Shown here: positions 2,064 through 37,787 of the stretch, one piece after another
Position numbering within the stretch: position 1 is the stretch's first letter
How the letters are laid out: every line of letters begins with the position of its first letter
Assembly (NCBI GenBank): GCA_029262055.1
Contig: JAJDAD010000048.1
Span: 1-64,000 of the forward strand
Length of the DNA stretch: 64,000 bases
Reading direction: 5' to 3'
Source of the DNA: Candidatus Zhuqueibacterota bacterium
GTDB lineage: Bacteria; Zhuqueibacterota; Zhuqueibacteria; Oceanimicrobiales; Oceanimicrobiaceae
The notes under the pieces: generated by a model
What the model saw: the letters and a program-made list of their open reading frames with translations, nothing else
Told to the model about the DNA's origin: nothing
Database searches by the model: none
Made by a program: the position numbers and the translations under genes

Positions 2064-2828
2064 CTAGTTCGGGACTGTCTCCTGCATCTGTTTTAGTTCT
2101 GTGCGGATGGTGAGGATTGCCTTACCCAATAAGCGGCTGATGCGGGATTCAGACAATTTTAACACTTTTCCTATTTCGAGAAGGGTCATTTCGTCGTGGT
2201 AGTACATGAGCACGATGAGCCGCTGGCGCTCGGGTAGCTTGAGAATCGCATCTTTCACGATGTGCAGAGTATTCTTGCGGCTCAGATCTTCCAGAGGTCC
2301 GACGCAGCTCGCGTCGGCAATAATATCGGCCAGCTTCACTTGTTCGCCGTCCGTCTCCTGCACCTGGTCGAGCGAGATTAGAAAATTCAACTGCGCCATT
2401 TCCAGCAGGCGGTGGCACTCGCGCAAATCCATTCCGAGCTCGTTTGCAACTTCAAAAGCCGATGGCTCGCGATTAAAACGAAGGGAGAGGTCCTGCGTGG
2501 TCTTTTCGATGTTGCGCAATTTAGCGCGATCGCCACGACTGAGAAAATCGATCTTTCTCAGGTAGTCGAGGATATGGCCGCGCACTCGCCAGGTCGCATA
2601 GGTTTTGAACGCAGTGTTTCGGGATACGTCAAAATCGTCCAGTGCACGGATAAGGCCAATGATGCCGGAGCTATGGATGTCCTCCAGCTCCATCTTGCTG
2701 CGCACCGAAAGATTCAACCTGCCAATGACGTACTTTACGATTGGCATGAACTTGACGATTGCTTGGTCGCGGAGTTTTGAGTCGCCAGTCTTAAGATATT
2801 CTCTGACCAGATCTTCGCTATTCAACAT
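2064..2828 (-). CDS. fliA: RNA polymerase sigma factor for flagellar operon (sigma28/FliA)
   Basis: 'MLNSEDLVREYLKTGDSKLRDQAIVKFMPIVKYVIGRL...DDFDVSRNTAFKTYATWRVRGHILDYLRKIDF...LPERQRLIVLMYYHDEMTLLEIGKVLKLSESRISRL'. Internal ATG at 2828 preferred over the track start at 2996. Confidence 0.93.
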   Translation of the reverse strand: MLNSEDLVREYLKTGDSKLRDQAIVKFMPIVKYVIGRLNLSVRSKMELEDIHSSGIIGLIRALDDFDVSRNTAFKTYATWRVRGHILDYLRKIDFLSRGDRAKLRNIEKTTQDLSLRFNREPSAFEVANELGMDLRECHRLLEMAQLNFLISLDQVQETDGEQVKLADIIADASCVGPLEDLSRKNTLHIVKDAILKLPERQRLIVLMYYHDEMTLLEIGKVLKLSESRISRLLGKAILTIRTELKQMQETVPN

Positions 2829-3105
2829 CGACTCCTGTGGTCGCAGGCGTAATAGATTCCTCGGCTTCGGTGTCGGCTTCAGGTTTATCTTTGTTGTCAG
2901 GTCGGATTCTCTCTTCCAAAACCTGCCTGGGATCGAAAACCACGCGCAAGAAAAGAAAGAATGCAATGAGAACCAGGTAAAACCCCAAAAGTACAATCAA
3001 GCCCCGCACCAGACTCTCAAGAATTGACACACCTGATACCACGCAATAGACCAGCGTAATAAAACCAGCAAAGAAGCTGACCCTCATTGTAAATTTCGTA
3101 AGCAT
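2818..3105 (-). CDS. Small two-TM hypothetical protein between flhF and fliA
   Basis: 95-aa ORF with two hydrophobic helices and acidic tail; begins at the flhF stop and overlaps the fliA start. Confidence 0.65.
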   Translation of the reverse strand: MLTKFTMRVSFFAGFITLVYCVVSGVSILESLVRGLIVLLGFYLVLIAFFLFLRVVFDPRQVLEERIRPDNKDKPEADTEAEESITPATTGVDVE

Positions 3106-4286: not shown

Positions 4287-6375
4287 AATTCGTAATTCCT
4301 ACGCTTCCAATGGTATTGATGACTATGGTTGGCAACAGTTCGGAAATGGATAGCACGGTCAGATCCGGTAATACAGGCTCAAAAAAGTTCTTTATGTAGC
4401 GTCGAACAGCCGGGCCGGTAATCAACAATGCCTTGCCGCCGGCCGCCACCAGATCCTGAATCTTGCCGGCCGTTTGCGTGTAAAGCTCATTCATCGCGGT
4501 CGGGGACAAGTTGAGGTTCTGGTTCGGATGCTTGCCCGAAGCGAGTTGATTCAGAATAAACTCCTCAAACCTCGCATCGAGTGTGATGGTTGTGATCTCG
4601 CCCTGTTCATCCAGGTGCTGATTGCTGATCACCTCGGATAGTGCGGCGCGCACATATTCGGTCAGAACATCAGGATCTTTGGACAAATTTCCCCGGTCGG
4701 CCAGGGTCTCTAGAATGGTCGGCAAGTCTCTGACCGGAATGCGCTCTTTTAACAAATTCTTCAGAACATTCTGAATGGTCCCGACCGTCAACAAGTTGGG
4801 GGTCAACTCCTCCACAACGGCAGAATGCTCTTCCTTGAGATTTTCCAGGAGATTTTGGACCGACTGCCGCTCCAAAATCTTGTAGGCGTTCTGCTTGAGC
4901 AACTCCATTAAATGGGTGGAGATCACGGCGGAAGCGTCGACCACTGCATACCCCCTGATTTCCGCGTGGTCTCTTTGTTCCTCATTAAGCCAGCACGCCG
5001 GCAGATTATAGGTGGGATCTTTGGTTTTGATGCCCTGGAGCTCGTCATCCTCCCCTTCCGGGGTCAAAGCCAGGTAGTACCCGACCATCACCTCGCCGCG
5101 GGCAGCGTCATTGCCCTTGATTTTCACCACATACTCAGTAGAGCCGAGCTGGACGTTGTCGCGAATCCGGATGGGAGGCACGACGATTCCCAATTCCTGG
5201 GCTATCTGCTTCCGAATCATGGTGATGCTGTTCAACAAGTCACCGCCCTGATTGCGGTCAATCAGCGGGATCAGGCTGTAGCCAATTTCGATCTCGAGAG
5301 GGTCGACGTGCAAATAACCCTCTATGTCATCGGGCGGTTCCTCCACAACCGGGGCCTCGGCCTCCAACTCTTCTCTTGCCTGCTTCTCGACCAGACCGGT
5401 AGACATGTAACCCAGGCCAATGCTGGTCAGTCCCATCAGGAGGAAGGGCAGCACCGGGAATCCCGGCACCAGCGCCATGAGGACGAGGACTCCGCCTGAG
5501 ATATAGCTCGCCTTCGGCTTGCTGAACATCTGGTCGGTAATGGAATCCGCCAAAGTCTGTTCAGTGGCCGCACGGGTCACGATGATACCGGCGGAAGTGG
5601 AAATCAGTAATGCCGGAATCTGGGAGACCAGCCCGTCCCCGACCGTCAGAATTGTGTAGGTTTCAAGGGCCTGGACCAGGGTCATGTCAAGCTGGACCGC
5701 ACCAATAATCAATCCGCCGATGATGTTGATCACCGTGATCAAAACGCCGGCGATAGCGTCACCGCGTACAAATTTGCTGGCGCCATCCATCGCCCCGTAG
5801 AAATCGGCTTCCTTGCGAATCTCGTCACGGCGCTTTCTGGCTTCCCCCTCCTCGATCAGCCCCGCATTCAAGTCAGCATCGATGGCCATCTGCTTGCCGG
5901 GCAGGGAATCGAGGGTGAACCTGGCTGCGACCTCGGCCACCCGCCCGGAGCCTTTGGTGATTACGACAAAATTGATGATAACCAGGATGATAAAAACGAC
6001 CAGCCCGACGACGTAATTCCCCTTGACCACGAAATTTCCGAAGGCATTGATGACGTCGCCGGCAAATGCCTCGCCCAGAATGAGACGGGTCGAGGCGATG
6101 TTGAGTGAAAGCCGAAACAGGGTGACGATCAGCAGAATACCGGGGAAGACTGAAAACTCCAGAGGTTTGCGAACATACATTGGCACCAACAGAATCATCA
6201 ACGAGCATGTGATGTTGATGGCCAGCAGTATGTCGAGAAAAAAGCTGGGCAGGGGGACGATCATAAACATCAGTATCGCAACGACACCGATTGCCACCAG
6301 CAGGTCGCCTCGTTTTTGCACCCCCTGCAAAAACGCAAAACTCTTATCCGTTCTGTTCTGGTCCGCCAAAGCCAT
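4279..6375 (-). CDS. flhA: Flagellar export gate protein FlhA
   Basis: Multi-TM N-term plus 'LDSLPGKQMAIDADLNAGLIEEGEARKRRDEI...FYGAMDGASKFVRGDAIAGVLI' FHIPEP signature. Confidence 0.97.
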   Translation of the reverse strand: MALADQNRTDKSFAFLQGVQKRGDLLVAIGVVAILMFMIVPLPSFFLDILLAINITCSLMILLVPMYVRKPLEFSVFPGILLIVTLFRLSLNIASTRLILGEAFAGDVINAFGNFVVKGNYVVGLVVFIILVIINFVVITKGSGRVAEVAARFTLDSLPGKQMAIDADLNAGLIEEGEARKRRDEIRKEADFYGAMDGASKFVRGDAIAGVLITVINIIGGLIIGAVQLDMTLVQALETYTILTVGDGLVSQIPALLISTSAGIIVTRAATEQTLADSITDQMFSKPKASYISGGVLVLMALVPGFPVLPFLLMGLTSIGLGYMSTGLVEKQAREELEAEAPVVEEPPDDIEGYLHVDPLEIEIGYSLIPLIDRNQGGDLLNSITMIRKQIAQELGIVVPPIRIRDNVQLGSTEYVVKIKGNDAARGEVMVGYYLALTPEGEDDELQGIKTKDPTYNLPACWLNEEQRDHAEIRGYAVVDASAVISTHLMELLKQNAYKILERQSVQNLLENLKEEHSAVVEELTPNLLTVGTIQNVLKNLLKERIPVRDLPTILETLADRGNLSKDPDVLTEYVRAALSEVISNQHLDEQGEITTITLDARFEEFILNQLASGKHPNQNLNLSPTAMNELYTQTAGKIQDLVAAGGKALLITGPAVRRYIKNFFEPVLPDLTVLSISELLPTIVINTIGSVGITNYD

Positions 6376-6442
6376 TCTCCGCGAAAGGACTTTAACACAT
6401 CAACCGCCGGTGGGTCATGTTCAGCGGAATATTTGCAAAGTC

Positions 6443-6473
6443 GATTCTTGACTGATCCTATTGAGAATCAGTC
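6443..6473 (-). other. Two mutually exclusive hairpins in the flhB-flhA intergenic leader
   Basis: GATTCT (6443-6448)/AGAATC (6464-6469) and GACTGAT (6450-6456)/ATCAGTC (6467-6473) share bases 6467-6469. Confidence 0.4.
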
Positions 6474-6502
6474 GGGTAATACAACATCCCTGTGCACTGG
6501 GT

Positions 6503-7570
6503 CTAGTTGCGTCTCTCTTTAAGCTGGTAAACATGGGCAAAAACCTCAGCTACCGCCTGAAACAACTCAGGTGGTACGCGGGTGCCGATGTCACACAACT
6601 TAAACAATGAACGCGCCAGGGGTTTATTCTCGTAGATAGGTATATTATGTTCCTTCGCAATGTCCTTGATTCGTTGTGCGATGAGCCGGGCTCCCTTCGC
6701 CAGAACAATTGGCGCGCCCATCTGGCCCGGATCGTACTTCAGGGCTACTGCAAGATGGGTCGGGTTCGTGATCACCACATCTGCTTCGGCAATACTGCTC
6801 ATCATGCGTTGCCGGGTCAGTTTTTCCTGCATGCTCCGGATCGCACTCTTGACCTTGGGATCTCCTTCCGCCTGCATCTGCTCGTCCTTGACTTCTTTTT
6901 TGGTCATGCGCATATCGCGCTGATTCTGCCATCTCTGGTACAGAAAATCAAAAAAGGCCAGGATCAGTAAAGCCAACGCTGTACGGATTCCCACCTTGAG
7001 CATCGATGACGCGATGAACATCAGGATGCTATCCACGTCTTCGTGCGTTAGGGTCAGGAATGTGTCCTTGATCGACATAATCGCGTCATAAGCGACCGAC
7101 GTAATTATGATCAATACCAGGCCGTTCTTAAGAAGCTCCACCGAAGACTTAGGCGAGAAGAGTCGCTTTAGCCCCTTTGCGGGATTCATCTTCGAAAAGG
7201 AAGGCTTCAGCGGTTTAAATGTCCAAAGAAACCCTGATTGACCGACGCCTGCAGCCACGCCTGCGAGCATTATGGCTGACAAAAACGGCAGGAGCAGAAA
7301 GAATACAGACTTAGCCCCCAGGTACGCATAATGCTGCATGTCGTCCGTAGTAACTGGCATGCGGGCTATCTCTTGATAGTAAATGCGAAACCCTGAAGAA
7401 AGCTTGGCAAAAAACCGGGTGCCGGTCAAAGACAACGCCACAAATGCCGTCAGCAACACCACAGCAGAGTTGAGTTCGCTACTTTTGGGGACCTTCCCCT
7501 CTTTGCGGGACTCTGTGCGACGCTTCTGAGTCGCTTGCTCTGTTTTTTCCTGGAAGGAGTCGTCAGCCAT
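6503..7570 (-). CDS. flhB: Flagellar export switch protein FlhB
   Basis: 'EKTEQATQKRRTESRKEGKVPKS' N-term; autocleavage motif NPTH in 'VVITNPTHLAVALKYDP'. Confidence 0.97.
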   Translation of the reverse strand: MADDSFQEKTEQATQKRRTESRKEGKVPKSSELNSAVVLLTAFVALSLTGTRFFAKLSSGFRIYYQEIARMPVTTDDMQHYAYLGAKSVFFLLLPFLSAIMLAGVAAGVGQSGFLWTFKPLKPSFSKMNPAKGLKRLFSPKSSVELLKNGLVLIIITSVAYDAIMSIKDTFLTLTHEDVDSILMFIASSMLKVGIRTALALLILAFFDFLYQRWQNQRDMRMTKKEVKDEQMQAEGDPKVKSAIRSMQEKLTRQRMMSSIAEADVVITNPTHLAVALKYDPGQMGAPIVLAKGARLIAQRIKDIAKEHNIPIYENKPLARSLFKLCDIGTRVPPELFQAVAEVFAHVYQLKERRN

Positions 7571-7593
7571 AAATCAGGAACCGGGGCGGCTGT

Positions 7594-8481
7594 TTAGGTA
7601 AAAAGCCGCGTGAAGCTTTGCGCCAGAGCCGGGTCGAAAATCGAGCCTTGCTCTTCCTGAATGTAGGCCACAGCATCGCTTAGGGAGTGCATCCTCCGGT
7701 GCGGTCTGTCTGAGGTCCATGCGTCGAAAAAATCGGTTAGAGTGATGATGCGGGAAAACTCATGAATCGAATTACCATGCAGGCGTTTGGGATAACCGGT
7801 ACCATCGAAGCGCTCATGATGTTGCACGGAAGCCACCGTCGTGATGCCGTCAAACGCGCAGTTGTGCACAAGGTGCGTAAAACCCTTTGTGGTGTGTTGC
7901 TTAACCTGCTCAAACTCTTCCGCGCCGAGCTCGTCCTTCTTGTTTACGATGTCACCATCTACAAACTCCATCCCAAAGTCATGGATAAGCCCGGCAATGG
8001 CAAGGTTCAGCAACTGTTGATCGCTGTAATTTTTTGCACGCCCGATGAAGATCGAGTAGACCGCCACGTTCACACAATGCTGGTACAAATAATCCCCTTG
8101 CCGCTTCAGTTCCAGCAGTTGTGGTGGCTTTTCCAGACGATTCTGCACATGCACAAGTATCGCCTCCGCCAGGGAGAGCAGATCACCTTTTGCTTGCGCT
8201 GCCCGCACTGTGTCATCGATGCGCATCTTCCTGAACACTTTCTTCAAAATATAAGGAGCGGTGGTCAAAAGCCGGTCCGAGTTGAAGCGCGACCCCTCAG
8301 AACTTACTCCCTGGCTCAGAAGAAAAATGCTCTGATAGCCGCTATCCTGAAAATAGTCAAGGTAGCGCGGCGTAATCTCCACGCCCTTGCGCAAGAGTAA
8401 GTTGCCGGCGGGGTTATATAGATTCTGGCCGAGACGGCGTCCTACAACCTCATTTCCAAGTTGATGAACTTCTACGCCCAA
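7594..8481 (-). CDS. HD-GYP family phosphodiesterase-like protein (first of tandem pair by coordinate)
   Basis: 'LIHDFGMEFVDGDIV...KQHTTKG...QHHERFDGTGYPKRL...TDFFDAWTSDRPHR'. TTG start with GGGAGA upstream. Confidence 0.88.
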   Translation of the reverse strand: MGVEVHQLGNEVVGRRLGQNLYNPAGNLLLRKGVEITPRYLDYFQDSGYQSIFLLSQGVSSEGSRFNSDRLLTTAPYILKKVFRKMRIDDTVRAAQAKGDLLSLAEAILVHVQNRLEKPPQLLELKRQGDYLYQHCVNVAVYSIFIGRAKNYSDQQLLNLAIAGLIHDFGMEFVDGDIVNKKDELGAEEFEQVKQHTTKGFTHLVHNCAFDGITTVASVQHHERFDGTGYPKRLHGNSIHEFSRIITLTDFFDAWTSDRPHRRMHSLSDAVAYIQEEQGSIFDPALAQSFTRLFT

Positions 8482-8525
8482 CTGGTATTCTCCCTTATTC
8501 TGGAACGGATTCGGCAGTGCATGTT

Positions 8526-9425
8526 CTACATTTCAAAGAATCGTAAAAAGTGCTTCACGATATCTTCATCAAACAATGTGCCGGCATTATCTTTCAGATA
8601 GGCGATGCCCTCATCCAGTGTATGTAATCGGCGCCATGGTCGATCTGAAGTGTAAGCATCAAAGACGTCGGCGATGGCAATTATCTGGGAGTACTCATGA
8701 ATCTCGTTACCCACCATCCCTTTCAGGTACCCCGACCCGTCAAAGCGCTCATGATGTTGCAGGCAAACGATTGTAACGAGCCCTTTGATAAAACAATTCC
8801 GTCCCAAATGCTGGAAGCCCAACACGGTGTGCTTGCGCATCTCTTCCGCTTCCTTGTCGCTCAATGCTTCAGGCTTCATCAGGATGTCATCGTCTATATA
8901 GATCATACCAAAATCGTGCAGCAAAGCTGCCAACGCCAAATCGAAAAGCTTCAATTGGTGGTACTGCAAGCTCTGACCCATCAGAATAGAATATGCTGCT
9001 ACACTTATCGCATGTTGGTAAATGTAGTCCGACTGCCGCTTCAAATCGACAATATCCGGGGGGGCCGACATCCTGATGTCTACATCCCGAATCAGGCTAT
9101 CTGCCAGCACGCTGAGCTCTTTCTTGGCATTAGAGACCTTGATTTTGTCTTTGCTTAAGAGTTTTTGGTAGATCTGTTTCAATGCGACCGGTGCAGCCGC
9201 CCGCAACTTCTCAGACAGTACATGGCCAGTCGACTCAAGGACATCGGAATGACTCTTCTGCAAGACATAAAGACTGCGGTAACCTACATCTTTGATCTTC
9301 CTGTAATGGAAGTCTCCTATTTCGGCGCCCATACCCAAAAGCAGACTTCCCTTTGGGCTATAGAGCTTTTGTCCCAGAAGCTGTCCAATGACGTTGGAGT
9401 CCAATTCCGCGATCTGTAAGTCCAT
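8526..9425 (-). CDS. HD-GYP family phosphodiesterase-like protein (paralogue of 7594-8481)
   Basis: 'LLHDFGMIYIDDDIL...RKHTVLGFQHL...QHHERFDGSGYLKGM...ADVFDAYTSDRPWRR'. ATG at 9425 has AGGAG 8 nt upstream. Confidence 0.88.
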   Translation of the reverse strand: MDLQIAELDSNVIGQLLGQKLYSPKGSLLLGMGAEIGDFHYRKIKDVGYRSLYVLQKSHSDVLESTGHVLSEKLRAAAPVALKQIYQKLLSKDKIKVSNAKKELSVLADSLIRDVDIRMSAPPDIVDLKRQSDYIYQHAISVAAYSILMGQSLQYHQLKLFDLALAALLHDFGMIYIDDDILMKPEALSDKEAEEMRKHTVLGFQHLGRNCFIKGLVTIVCLQHHERFDGSGYLKGMVGNEIHEYSQIIAIADVFDAYTSDRPWRRLHTLDEGIAYLKDNAGTLFDEDIVKHFLRFFEM

Positions 9426-9436
9426 ACCTATCACTC

Positions 9437-10249
9437 CTAAAAGTAATTCAGAATACTACCCATATCTCGTTTCCACGCACTGAGCAAGTCACTGAAAAAG
9501 AGATAGAATACTGGAAACGAAGAAATTACGACGAGCATCCCAATTCCCAGGCGAACCGGCAGGCCAATAAAAAAGATGTTCATCCGTGGAACGACCCGCG
9601 CCATAATTGCCATACACACCTCTATCAAAAACAACGTCACCATTACCGGTGCAGCCAACTTGACACCAATTGAAAACACATCGTTGAACATGGTCATCAT
9701 TTTGAACTTTGCCGCCGGATGCAAGACGCTGAGACTATGCACCGGCGCCAATTCAAAACTCTTGTAGAGCGCAGAAATCATGAAATGATGTCCGTTCAGC
9801 GACAGAAAAAAGACGATCGCCATGAACGAATAGATGTTCCCAAAAGGCGTTACGGGCTGGCCGTTGTCTGGATCCACGAGATTGGCCATGCCCAAACCCA
9901 TTTGCGTACTAATCAATCGTCCGGCAAACTGAAAACTCTCAAAGATAAACTTCGCATTAAAACCCAGAAACAAACCGATTACCACTTCCTTCAAAGTGAG
10001 AGGAACCATCCCCAACAGGTTCAAAGAGGAAAGACTGTCATCCACTTTTATCAAGGGTAGTATGGTTATGGTCATGAACAGCGCAAAAAACACTTTCAGT
10101 TGCGCAGGTACCGAAGAGCTACCCAAAATGGGCGCAACGCTGGCAAGTGCAGCAATCCTGAAAAAAGCCAGCAGGAAACCCAGTAGCTGAGATTCGGAAA
10201 TGCCCAGAAGTTCGTTCAACATGTGTCGCCTAAACAGAGTCGTACTCAC
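9437..10249 (-). CDS. fliR: Flagellar export protein FliR
   Basis: Multi-TM 'FLLAFFRIAALASVAPILGSSSVPAQLKVFFALFMTI', 'QFAGRLISTQMGLGMANLVDP'. Confidence 0.95.
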   Translation of the reverse strand: MSTTLFRRHMLNELLGISESQLLGFLLAFFRIAALASVAPILGSSSVPAQLKVFFALFMTITILPLIKVDDSLSSLNLLGMVPLTLKEVVIGLFLGFNAKFIFESFQFAGRLISTQMGLGMANLVDPDNGQPVTPFGNIYSFMAIVFFLSLNGHHFMISALYKSFELAPVHSLSVLHPAAKFKMMTMFNDVFSIGVKLAAPVMVTLFLIEVCMAIMARVVPRMNIFFIGLPVRLGIGMLVVISSFPVFYLFFSDLLSAWKRDMGSILNYF

Positions 10250-10265
10250 AACTCAATCTCTGGTT

Positions 10266-10535
10266 CTACCTAGAAATCAGGCTCATCTGTGAAAACATAT
10301 TATGCATGAAATCGGTCAACACTTCCAGGGTCCAGGGCATCAAGAACAAAATCACCAGAATAACGGCCGCCATTTTGGGGATAAACGTTAAAGTCATCTC
10401 CTGTATGGAAGTGACGGATTGGAAGATACCGACGAGAAGCCCCACGATCATTCCAACCGCGAGGATTGGAGCGGTTACCATAATCGCGGTTTTTACAGTC
10501 TGTTGGCCCCAGTATATAACAAATTCGGTTGTCAC
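10266..10535 (-). CDS. fliQ: Flagellar export protein FliQ (GTG start)
   Basis: 'MTTEFVIYWGQQTVKTAIMVTAPILAVGMIVGLLVGIFQSVTSIQEMTLTFIPKM'. GTG at 10535 preceded by AAAGGG; the track start at 10610 is too long. Confidence 0.93.
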   Translation of the reverse strand: MTTEFVIYWGQQTVKTAIMVTAPILAVGMIVGLLVGIFQSVTSIQEMTLTFIPKMAAVILVILFLMPWTLEVLTDFMHNMFSQMSLISR

Positions 10536-34130: not shown

Positions 34131-35669
34131 TCACTTGAAAAGCTCCGCCACAAGATCGCGGTTGCTGCGACTGCGGAACGTGCTAAATTTTTCCTCAAAC
34201 TCAGAACGGGTCCTGAGTTGCTGCCGGTGCAGCACGCTGAGCAGACCACCCAGAGCGGCCCCTCGTTCGATGGCGTTTTTGCCGTCCGGTCTAAGTTTGC
34301 GCAGGTGGCTCTGCAAATCCTCCTGTTGCACGGTGAGGTCGTTAAAATCACCCAGATTTTCCTGCAGCTTCTTTAGCTGCCGGATCAACACCGTGATTTT
34401 TTCAGCGTGAAACAGAGACTCAAAGAACTCAAGCAAATAGCGCAGCTTCTTGCATTCGATGCGCAGATCGTGCAGGCACTGGTCAGGACTTTCTTTGGTG
34501 ATGCGCTTGCCGTCGCGCAGGATTTTTTTGTAGCGCTTCAGAATTGTGCTTTTGGCGACCTCCTGAATGGGCAAGGATGAATTGGCGCCGACCGCGCTGC
34601 CGGCAAGCTCCTCGACTTCGACAAACTCCCGAATTGCTGCCAGGGCCTCGCGATAACGTTTCGATTTCATCGCGGTGCGGAGTTTTTGATGCTCGTTGTT
34701 CCGCATTCGTTCCAGGGAATCAAATAGCGGTCGCAGGCCGGCGCGCAACTCTTCGGCTAAAGCGTGCTCATACTTTTTGCGTTGCAGGAGATAAACATCG
34801 AGATCGCGATGCCTGTTTGTGATTTGTCCCAAGTAGGCAAAATGTTGTTTCAGGGTTAACGTGGTTTCGTCCGTAAACACGCCTTTGATTTGAGTCAGAG
34901 CCGAGCGGGCCCGCCGGCAAGCAACCCGGAAGTCGTGCAAAAACTCCGAATCGATGTCTCCCAGCACGCCGGCCTCATTTTCCTGAATGACCGAAAACAA
35001 GTTTTCCAGGATTTGTTGCGCGGCAACGGCTGCAGGCGTCTCGGAGGTAAGCTGCAAATCCGGCTTGGAAATATACTTGCCCGGTTTACGGCCTGACGTG
35101 CTCAGAGTCGCGGCAAGCAGAGTGTCCGGGGTCTCGCTCAGCCCCGATTTCGCGAGCATGTTGACCACCTGCGCACAGGCCATGGCATAACCTCGAATCG
35201 GCTGCACGGTCAGGCGCGCCAACTTCTGCTTCGGTCTTTTGTTGCCAACCTCAACTGAGTCGATTGAGAGCCTAGCCACGGTTTTGGCATCCTGATTCAG
35301 AATGCGCATGCTTTCGGTAACGTGCATACACCGGGCAACGGCCAGCAGGGCGCGTACGCCGAGCAGTTCCTGCAAGTGCTGCCGGGCAGCCGGCTCCGGG
35401 AAGTCCTGCCAGAACGCCGGTATCTGGCGTGGCCCCGCGCCCAGATCAGAAACGGCGACCGGAGATACCAGACTACTGAGCGTGTACTTACCCTTGCTCT
35501 CAGCCAAGGTGAGGTTACGGCTGAACAGACGCCAATCAAAGGTATCGAAATAGGTTCGACGGACCGTTTGCTTCGGCTCCTGTTGCCCGGAAAAAGCATC
35601 AGCCACTTTCTCTTCAAATTCGTTGAGGGAAAAATCCTCAGGGATGGCAAAAAAACGTGCGGAAAGCAA
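34131..35669 (-). CDS. CYTH-like/CHAD domain protein
   Basis: 'RRTYFDTFDWRLFSRNLTLAES' CYTH-like; CHAD 'FLHDFRVACRRARSALTQIKGVF', 'HRDLDVYLLQRKKYEHAL', 'CLHDLRIECKKLRYLLEFFESLF', 'LQENLGDFNDLTVQ'. Confidence 0.9.
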   Translation of the reverse strand: MLSARFFAIPEDFSLNEFEEKVADAFSGQQEPKQTVRRTYFDTFDWRLFSRNLTLAESKGKYTLSSLVSPVAVSDLGAGPRQIPAFWQDFPEPAARQHLQELLGVRALLAVARCMHVTESMRILNQDAKTVARLSIDSVEVGNKRPKQKLARLTVQPIRGYAMACAQVVNMLAKSGLSETPDTLLAATLSTSGRKPGKYISKPDLQLTSETPAAVAAQQILENLFSVIQENEAGVLGDIDSEFLHDFRVACRRARSALTQIKGVFTDETTLTLKQHFAYLGQITNRHRDLDVYLLQRKKYEHALAEELRAGLRPLFDSLERMRNNEHQKLRTAMKSKRYREALAAIREFVEVEELAGSAVGANSSLPIQEVAKSTILKRYKKILRDGKRITKESPDQCLHDLRIECKKLRYLLEFFESLFHAEKITVLIRQLKKLQENLGDFNDLTVQQEDLQSHLRKLRPDGKNAIERGAALGGLLSVLHRQQLRTRSEFEEKFSTFRSRSNRDLVAELFK

Positions 35670-35672
35670 GTA

Positions 35673-37787
35673 TCAGTCTTCCTTGTCTGAATCCTGGTTC
35701 ACGGGACATGGACTCTCGCAGGCGACGTTCCTCAGGTAGTCGAATAGGTCATCTTGCGCTCTGGAGGTACACGTTTCCTCCGGAATTCGGTAAGTATTGT
35801 CCTGCTTTTCATTGATGACGCGCGCCTTGGTCGCATCGCACCACTGAATTTCAAAAAAGTCACGGAGCTGGCGTTGCACGGCTGGGTCGTAGATTGGTGC
35901 TGTCACTTCAACGCGGTTGTCGAGATTTCTGACCATCCAGTCAGCCGAAGAGATAAAGTACTTCTCGTCACCGCCGTTACAAAAAACCGAGATGCGCGAA
36001 TGTTCCAGATACTTGTCAACGATGCTGATGACTTCAATGTTTTCGCTCAGACCGGGAACGCCCGGGACCATAGAGCAGATGCCGCGAATGATCATGCGGA
36101 TTTTTACTCCGGCCCGGCTTGCTATGTAAAGCAAGTCGATCATTTTCTTGTCAACCAGGCTATTAAGCTTGACAAAAATATAGGCAGACTTGCCGGCCTC
36201 GGCGTTCTTGATCTCGGCCTTGATCAACTTGGTGAACTTCTTGCGCATATAAAATGGGGAAACGATCAGATGTTTGTACTGGAATGTTCGATAATTATTC
36301 TCCAGGAATTCAAAGACCCGGGCAATCTCCTTGGTAAGGCGCGGATCCGCGGTAAAAAGCGCGTGGTCGCTGTAAATCCTGGCGGTAGTTTCATTGTAGT
36401 TGCCGGTGCCCACGATACCGTAATGCACCAGTTTCTTCCCCTCTTTACGGGTGATGAGACAAAGCTTGGAATGCACTTTCATGCCGGGCACCGAATCAAT
36501 CAAATGCGCCCCGGCCTCTTCCAGACTTTGCGTCCAGAAGATATTCGCCTCTTCATCAAAACGGGCCTTCAACTCCAGCAGCACGGCTACTTCTTTGCCA
36601 TTTCGGCGTGCATTCACCAGCGCGTTGATTATGTTGGAGTTTTTCGCGACCCGGTAGAGCGTCATCTTGATGGAAACCACTTTGGGATCGATCGCGGCCT
36701 CGCGCAGAAGGTCGATCACGTAATGAAAAGATTGATACGGAAAGTGCAAAATAACATCCCGCGCCTTGATGGTTTCGATAAGGCTACGAGACTCCTCGAT
36801 GCTGCTAAGCTCAAGGGCGCGACGACGGCTGTACTCCAGATGCCCTGCGCCCACACTGGGAAATGACATAAAGTCTTTGGCATTGTGATAGCGTCCACCC
36901 GGAATGACATTGTCATGGTCTGCCAGCTTGTTGCGGTCAAGTACGTAGGTTAGCAAATCTTTCGGCATCTCGCGGTCATAGACAAACCGCACCGGCTGGC
37001 CCTGCAAGCGCTGCTTGATCGACTTGGAGATTTTCTCCAGAGAACTTTTGGTGATGTCGTCGTCGATCTCCAGCTCTGCATCCCTTGTCAATTTTATGGT
37101 GTAGGCTGAGATTTGATCATAATCAAAAATAGCAAAAATCTCCTGCAGGCCATAGCGGATAACGTCGTCAAGCATAATCAGATACTTGCGATCTTCAACC
37201 CCCGGCAGCATGATAAACCTGGGCAGGGTCACGACCGGAACTTCGATTAACGCATATTTTGCATTCTCCCGCTCATTTGCTTTTGACAAATGTACTGCCA
37301 GATAAATGACCTGATTGCGTAAATACGGAAAACGCGGCACCTCTTCCAACATGATGGGAACCAGGGATGGTCGCACTTCCTGGCGGAAATACGACTGCAC
37401 GAAACCCTCCTGCTCCGGATTCAGTTGCTTCTCATTGATGATAAAGACCTTTTCCGCCTCCAGCTCCTTGTGCAGCGCCGTAAACGTCTGGTCAAACTTC
37501 TCCCGTTGCTTCAGAACAACTTTGTTAATTTTCTCCAGGACCTTTTTGGGAGAGCCGAAACTGGCTTTGGTCTTCACGCCGGCGTTGTCGAGACGCATCA
37601 ACGACCCCACGCGGACGCGGAAAAACTCATCGAGGTTGGAAGAAAATATACCAAGAAATTTCAATCGCTCCAGCAGGGGAACCGCTGGGTCGGCAGCCTC
37701 CTGTAAGACACGGGCGTTAAAAGATAGCCAACTGATTTCACGATTGACGTACGGGTTGGGGGCAGAAGTGTTCTTTTGCTTTGGCAT
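35673..37787 (-). CDS. ppk1: Polyphosphate kinase 1
   Basis: 'YVNREISWLSFNARVLQEAADPAVPLLERLKFLGIFSSNLDEFFRVRVG', 'HSKLCLITRKEGKKLVHYGIVGTGNYNETTARIYSDHALFTAD'. Confidence 0.97.
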   Translation of the reverse strand: MPKQKNTSAPNPYVNREISWLSFNARVLQEAADPAVPLLERLKFLGIFSSNLDEFFRVRVGSLMRLDNAGVKTKASFGSPKKVLEKINKVVLKQREKFDQTFTALHKELEAEKVFIINEKQLNPEQEGFVQSYFRQEVRPSLVPIMLEEVPRFPYLRNQVIYLAVHLSKANERENAKYALIEVPVVTLPRFIMLPGVEDRKYLIMLDDVIRYGLQEIFAIFDYDQISAYTIKLTRDAELEIDDDITKSSLEKISKSIKQRLQGQPVRFVYDREMPKDLLTYVLDRNKLADHDNVIPGGRYHNAKDFMSFPSVGAGHLEYSRRRALELSSIEESRSLIETIKARDVILHFPYQSFHYVIDLLREAAIDPKVVSIKMTLYRVAKNSNIINALVNARRNGKEVAVLLELKARFDEEANIFWTQSLEEAGAHLIDSVPGMKVHSKLCLITRKEGKKLVHYGIVGTGNYNETTARIYSDHALFTADPRLTKEIARVFEFLENNYRTFQYKHLIVSPFYMRKKFTKLIKAEIKNAEAGKSAYIFVKLNSLVDKKMIDLLYIASRAGVKIRMIIRGICSMVPGVPGLSENIEVISIVDKYLEHSRISVFCNGGDEKYFISSADWMVRNLDNRVEVTAPIYDPAVQRQLRDFFEIQWCDATKARVINEKQDNTYRIPEETCTSRAQDDLFDYLRNVACESPCPVNQDSDKED

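Follow-up and report, generated by a model that had tools for sequence, protein, structure and literature searches.

Tandem HD-GYP paralogues with replaced catalytic residues, conserved between the flagellar export genes fliR and flhB in one KSB1/Caldithrix-type family

HD-GYP proteins are enzymes that hydrolyse c-di-GMP. In PmGH of Persephonella marina (PDB 4mcw, 4mdz, 4me4) each of the mutations K225A, D183A and H221A essentially abolishes the activity, and mutations in the GYP motif or in the substrate contacts do not greatly lower it (PMC4159591). No c-di-GMP phosphodiesterase activity was reported for Bd1817 of Bdellovibrio bacteriovorus (PDB 3tm8, 3tmb, 3tmc, 3tmd; PMC4159591). DvhD of Desulfovibrio vulgaris (PDB 9rbz, 9rc0) binds c-di-GMP and does not hydrolyse it; its metal site is broken and it uses c-di-GMP to alter its dimer geometry (PMC13090378). 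The described c-di-GMP effectors of the flagellum include the PilZ proteins YcgR/FlgZ (PMC3913639) and the export ATPase FliI (PMC4591828). We searched the literature for HD-GYP proteins together with fliR and flhB and, judging by title and abstract, found no paper on such an arrangement.

The window, a stretch of 64,000 nucleotides from one metagenomic contig, contains a minus-strand cluster of motA, motB, fliL, a fliN-like gene, fliO, fliP, fliQ, fliR, hdA, hdB, flhB, flhA, flhF, a 95-aa ORF and a sigma-70-family factor. The names of fliR, flhB, hdA, hdB and the sigma factor are supported by the profile library, and the remaining ones were read off the translations. The features under study are as follows.

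6503..7570, minus strand: flhB, flagellar export switch (TIGR00328)
7594..8481, minus strand: hdB, the HD-GYP paralogue nearer flhB, 295 aa with a TTG start
7969..7983, minus strand: HDFGM of hdB, residues 167-171, read from the sequence
8526..9434, minus strand: hdA, the HD-GYP paralogue nearer fliR, 302 aa from a GTG
8904..8918, minus strand: HDFGM of hdA, residues 170-174 counted from the ATG at 9425, read from the sequence
9437..10249, minus strand: fliR, flagellar export gate (TIGR01400)

The likely start of hdA is the ATG at 9425 (299 aa), which is kept in relatives and is also where the earlier note had placed the end of the pair. The gap between fliR and hdA is 2 bp from the GTG or 11 bp from the ATG, followed by 44 bp between hdA and hdB and 23 bp between hdB and flhB. 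Promoter and terminator predictions in 6300-10400 did not rise above shuffled sequence, and no internal site was supported. Both proteins consist of an N-terminal beta domain, a helical linker and an HD-GYP domain, with the motifs HDFGM and GYL in hdA and HDFGM and GYP in hdB. In the profile search the two ORFs matched Pfam HD_5 (PF13487) with E-values of 3.6e-26 and 2.3e-26 and scores of 92.4 and 93.0 bits, above the curated cut-off of 27.2, and the N-terminal domain matched no Pfam family. hdA and hdB share 41% identity from end to end (E = 4e-88), which makes them genuine tandem paralogues. Together with the FliR and FlhB neighbours, this confirms what had been proposed in the earlier note, namely tandem HD-GYP paralogues between fliR and flhB.

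The 95-aa ORF between flhF and the sigma factor (2818-3105, minus strand) has hydrophobic stretches, no Pfam match, and is kept in all four FliR-bearing relatives of the family. We saw no flhG at its usual place after flhF. Elsewhere in the window (34131-37787, minus strand) a CHAD-domain protein lies beside a polyphosphate kinase. CHAD is linked with polyphosphate, and the pairing fits.

Among the eight genomes of the family that we examined, FliR was found in five, belonging to four genera, and the hdA/hdB pair in those same five. Three genomes of 89-99% completeness (G002, G003, G004) had neither a detectable FliR nor the pair, so part of the family seems to have lost its flagella or never acquired them. 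The order fliR-hdA-hdB-flhB was present in G000, G001, G005 and G007, and G006 fits it, with the pair divided over two matching contig ends. In other families of the class fliR lies directly beside flhB at all 17 fliR loci examined. The insertion into the flagellar export operon that the earlier note had described is co-directional and was seen in 5/5 FliR-bearing genomes of the family versus 0/17 other fliR loci. An arrangement unique to this assembly, which that note had named as its own refutation, does not apply, and an assembly artefact or a one-off insertion was ruled out since five MAGs of four genera share the identical arrangement.

Full-length relatives were detected in five of the 82 genomes of the phylum, all of them these family members. 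In a pattern scan of genome contigs, high identity was limited to the same family, the close relatives being MAGs named 'Caldithrix sp.' and 'candidate division KSB1 bacterium', and next came distant, mostly Bacillota proteins with 23-37% identity. The pattern scan reaches close relatives only, so presence in other phyla is possible. A scan of the genome contigs with hdA alone gave no match, and the viral contigs scanned held no relative of the pair. KSB1 clades carrying flagellar genes have been described (PMC9012183).

In our tree the hdA clade and the hdB clade were each fully supported. Both divide the genera in the same way in the full-length tree, with G001 and G007 on one side and the window genome, G005 and G006 on the other. 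The simplest history is a single duplication that preceded the divergence of the genera, followed by vertical descent. Between the two closest genomes dN/dS was 0.22 for hdA and 0.19 for hdB, which indicates purifying selection and shows that neither gene is decaying; fliR, flhB, flhA and motB gave 0.10-0.19. Decaying pseudogenes were ruled out by the intact frames and these values near 0.2, and a mobile or viral origin was rejected on the lack of a relative in the viral contigs scanned and the like division of the two clades. The pair is a lineage-specific, conserved and, on this simplest history, vertically inherited insertion in the flagellar export operon of one KSB1/Caldithrix-type family. 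This gene-order tie to the flagellum is strong, and the operon position suggests a flagellar role.

We then compared the active sites with PmGH. Positions of ten proteins (five hdA and five hdB) were mapped by phmmer alignment, in which H189 corresponds to H138 of hdA. The K225 position is Met in all ten, and at D183 none has Asp, which is replaced by S, E, K, G or A. HDFGM of hdA contains the equivalents of H221 and D222, with Met in place of K225. At the H221 position the five hdA proteins have H, C, A, H and Y, whereas all five hdB proteins have H. The HD motif is correspondingly intact in both window proteins and in every hdB, and reads CD, AD or YD in three of the five hdA. H189, D222, H250, H276, H277, D305, D308, Y285 and R314 are invariant in the ten proteins, with Arg at K317; Y285 is the tyrosine of GYP and R314 the arginine that binds the nucleotide. 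The six metal ligands other than H221 never vary, and the full set of seven Y/F-subfamily ligands is present in 5/5 orthologues of hdB. The E185 position is Tyr in 10/10, which assigns the pair to the Y/F subfamily of PMC4159591, probably a binuclear one. As a control, other HD-GYP proteins of the class kept D183 in 24/24, H221 in 24/24 and K225 in 23/24 cases, a set that leaves out L002 and L035, which appear to be without the HD motif.

The HD-GYP proteins L002 and L035, each about 550 aa long, match in the C-terminal half only, with the HD motif apparently missing by alignment. Partial C-terminal matches resembling them are present in many genomes of the class.

The earlier note had read HDFGM, which both proteins have, in place of the usual HDIGK, and had described the second gene as carrying GYL. 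GYL lies in the gene nearer fliR, the first of the two in the operon (8526-9434), and in this genome only; the HHExxDGxGYP loop is present in all ten proteins, with GYP in the four orthologues of hdA. Its statement that the likely metal ligands are retained holds for this genome and fails across the orthologues, where H221 is lost in three of five hdA. Its suspicion of degeneracy is supported, since K225 and D183 are replaced in 10/10 proteins and H221 is lost in 3/5 hdA, and PmGH requires each of them (PMC4159591). Read against the PmGH mutants, these losses and retentions mean that the pair lost residues for hydrolysis and kept much of the set that holds the nucleotide. As far as can be read from the residues, hdA is best regarded as the clearer putative pseudo-enzyme of the two.

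The DvhD residues that contact c-di-GMP were mapped onto the pair by hand from the alignment. Its canonical-site contacts Y523, L577, Y621 and R650 correspond to Y134, L188, Y233 and R262, which are invariant in the pair. K582 and E668 are not conserved; Tyr or Trp stands at the position of M646, and Trp, Tyr or His at that of Y652. Five GGDEF matches, of which at least three retain an intact GG[D/E]EF, and two PilZ matches in the genome make c-di-GMP signalling likely. Given the DvhD precedent, the conserved contacts and these GGDEF and PilZ matches, we favour over three rivals, with moderate confidence, the reading that hdA and hdB would form a flagellar c-di-GMP receptor pair, HD-GYP-derived and non- or weakly hydrolytic. 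Neither HdA nor HdB has the D183/K225 catalytic pair, and in several species hdA has also lost the HD histidine, a loss that would remove the metal-bound nucleophile; the c-di-GMP-holding pocket would be retained in both proteins. The GGDEF enzymes of the genome would make c-di-GMP, which the pair would bind without hydrolysis, or without efficient hydrolysis. Binding could alter the dimer geometry via the helical linker and the N-terminal domain, and the altered geometry would adjust flagellar export, assembly or rotation. We infer here the c-di-GMP binding, the absent hydrolysis, the (hetero)dimerisation, the flagellar target and the effect on export or motility. Against the receptor reading count the seven metal ligands of hdB, the two unconserved DvhD contacts, an operon position that suggests a flagellar role rather than proving it, and the carriage by five genomes only. 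A narrower version, in which the pair would be an obligate heterodimeric receptor for the flagellar type III export gate, derived from phosphodiesterase domains rather than from PilZ and now a fixed part of one family's core export operon, we regard as tentative and rather doubtful.

The idea put forward in the earlier note was a catalytic plus regulatory heterodimer. In the form weighed here it would lower c-di-GMP at the flagellum, with HdB as an active binuclear phosphodiesterase and HdA as its regulatory pseudo-enzyme partner. The retention of all seven Y/F ligands in every HdB, next to the loss of H221 in three of five HdA, would suit this division of labour, as would the invariable adjacency of the two genes and their parallel phylogenies. 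However, D183 and K225, each of which PmGH requires, are missing from HdB as well, and we consider this reading unlikely. A built-in active c-di-GMP phosphodiesterase module is less supported: the ligands of hdB speak for it and the missing D183 and K225 against it.

A role in building the flagellum, as a structural part or chaperone and independent of the nucleotide, would explain why the pair is embedded in the operon and strictly co-occurs with FliR. We predicted models from eight-row alignments (mean pLDDT 82.7 for hdA and 81.1 for hdB), both with an N-terminal beta domain, linker helices and an HD-GYP domain. Their best PDB fold matches include Bd1817, PmGH, DvhD and PA4781, with TM-scores by query of 0.45-0.58, which leave the domain arrangement uncertain. 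The best full-length match is Bd1817, whose reported lack of c-di-GMP phosphodiesterase activity agrees with such a role. Nevertheless, residues of the nucleotide pocket are invariant over deep divergence, and a nucleotide-independent function is quite improbable.

The change of K225 to Met is not special to the pair. This was ruled out because distant Bacillota HD-GYP proteins show the same change together with the loss of D183, so it carries less weight. The x-D-Y/Met combination also occurs in 17 Bacillota HD-GYP proteins from the scan, 14 of them without H221 (Ala or Ser), although these proteins were collected through the DYxYQH pattern and their number and frequencies are biased. In the tree a 99/98 branch leaves them on the same side as the pair; branches are long, and the precise points of joining are unsafe. 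This pattern suggests that the loss of H221 may follow repeatedly once D183 and K225 are gone. The K225-to-Met change may also be the mark of a subfamily rather than a loss of function, which would count against a receptor. We know of no activity data for the distant proteins that share it. Least probable of all is that HdA and HdB are both enzymes whose active sites are unconventional but working, perhaps for a different substrate, and that HDxGM marks a functional subfamily: the recurrence of the D183/K225 replacement in Bacillota proteins on the pair's side of the tree and the six invariant ligands would agree with it, but the repeated loss of H221, seen both in hdA and among most of the collected Bacillota proteins, fits lost hydrolysis better.

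The HD-GYP proteins with DYxYQH and xDxGM (L067-L085) are mostly from Bacillota, with the HD histidine missing in most. At L068 and L079 the ORFs that precede it are 641 and 832-842 aa long, lengths that would suit putative gyrB and gyrA.

If the receptor reading is true, the pair would be another HD-GYP domain converted from enzyme to receptor. To our knowledge, it would also be the first such case that gene order links to the flagellar export gate. The hdA proteins, in which the HD histidine position is taken by H, C, A or Y, together with the intact hdB, make up a natural series for separating the residues of binding from those of hydrolysis. For the whole HDxGM group, the Bacillota proteins included, the annotation as phosphodiesterases is doubtful until assayed.

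The pair is a real, conserved and lineage-specific variation on known HD-GYP proteins. PmGH shares the HD-GYP fold with it and can be aligned to it at most of the metal ligands and substrate residues, but PmGH is an active trinuclear enzyme, whereas the pair has Tyr for E185, Met for K225 and no D183. Bd1817 likewise combines an N-terminal domain with HD-GYP, yet it is only 12-16% identical and is without the GYP tyrosine that is invariant in the pair. YcgR/FlgZ and FliI read out c-di-GMP at the flagellum, as is proposed here for the pair. Their folds are unrelated to HD-GYP, whereas the pair is derived from a phosphodiesterase domain. DvhD resembles the pair in having lost catalytic residues, and four of its canonical-site c-di-GMP contacts are invariant in the pair. 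Unlike the pair, it sits in the membrane, carries periplasmic dCache and PAS domains and controls adhesin proteolysis, and its HD is changed to SQ and its HH is altered as well. The pair stands in tandem among flagellar genes, has no dCache or PAS, and keeps most metal ligands. By this analogy DvhD is the closest functional precedent for the putative receptor pair.
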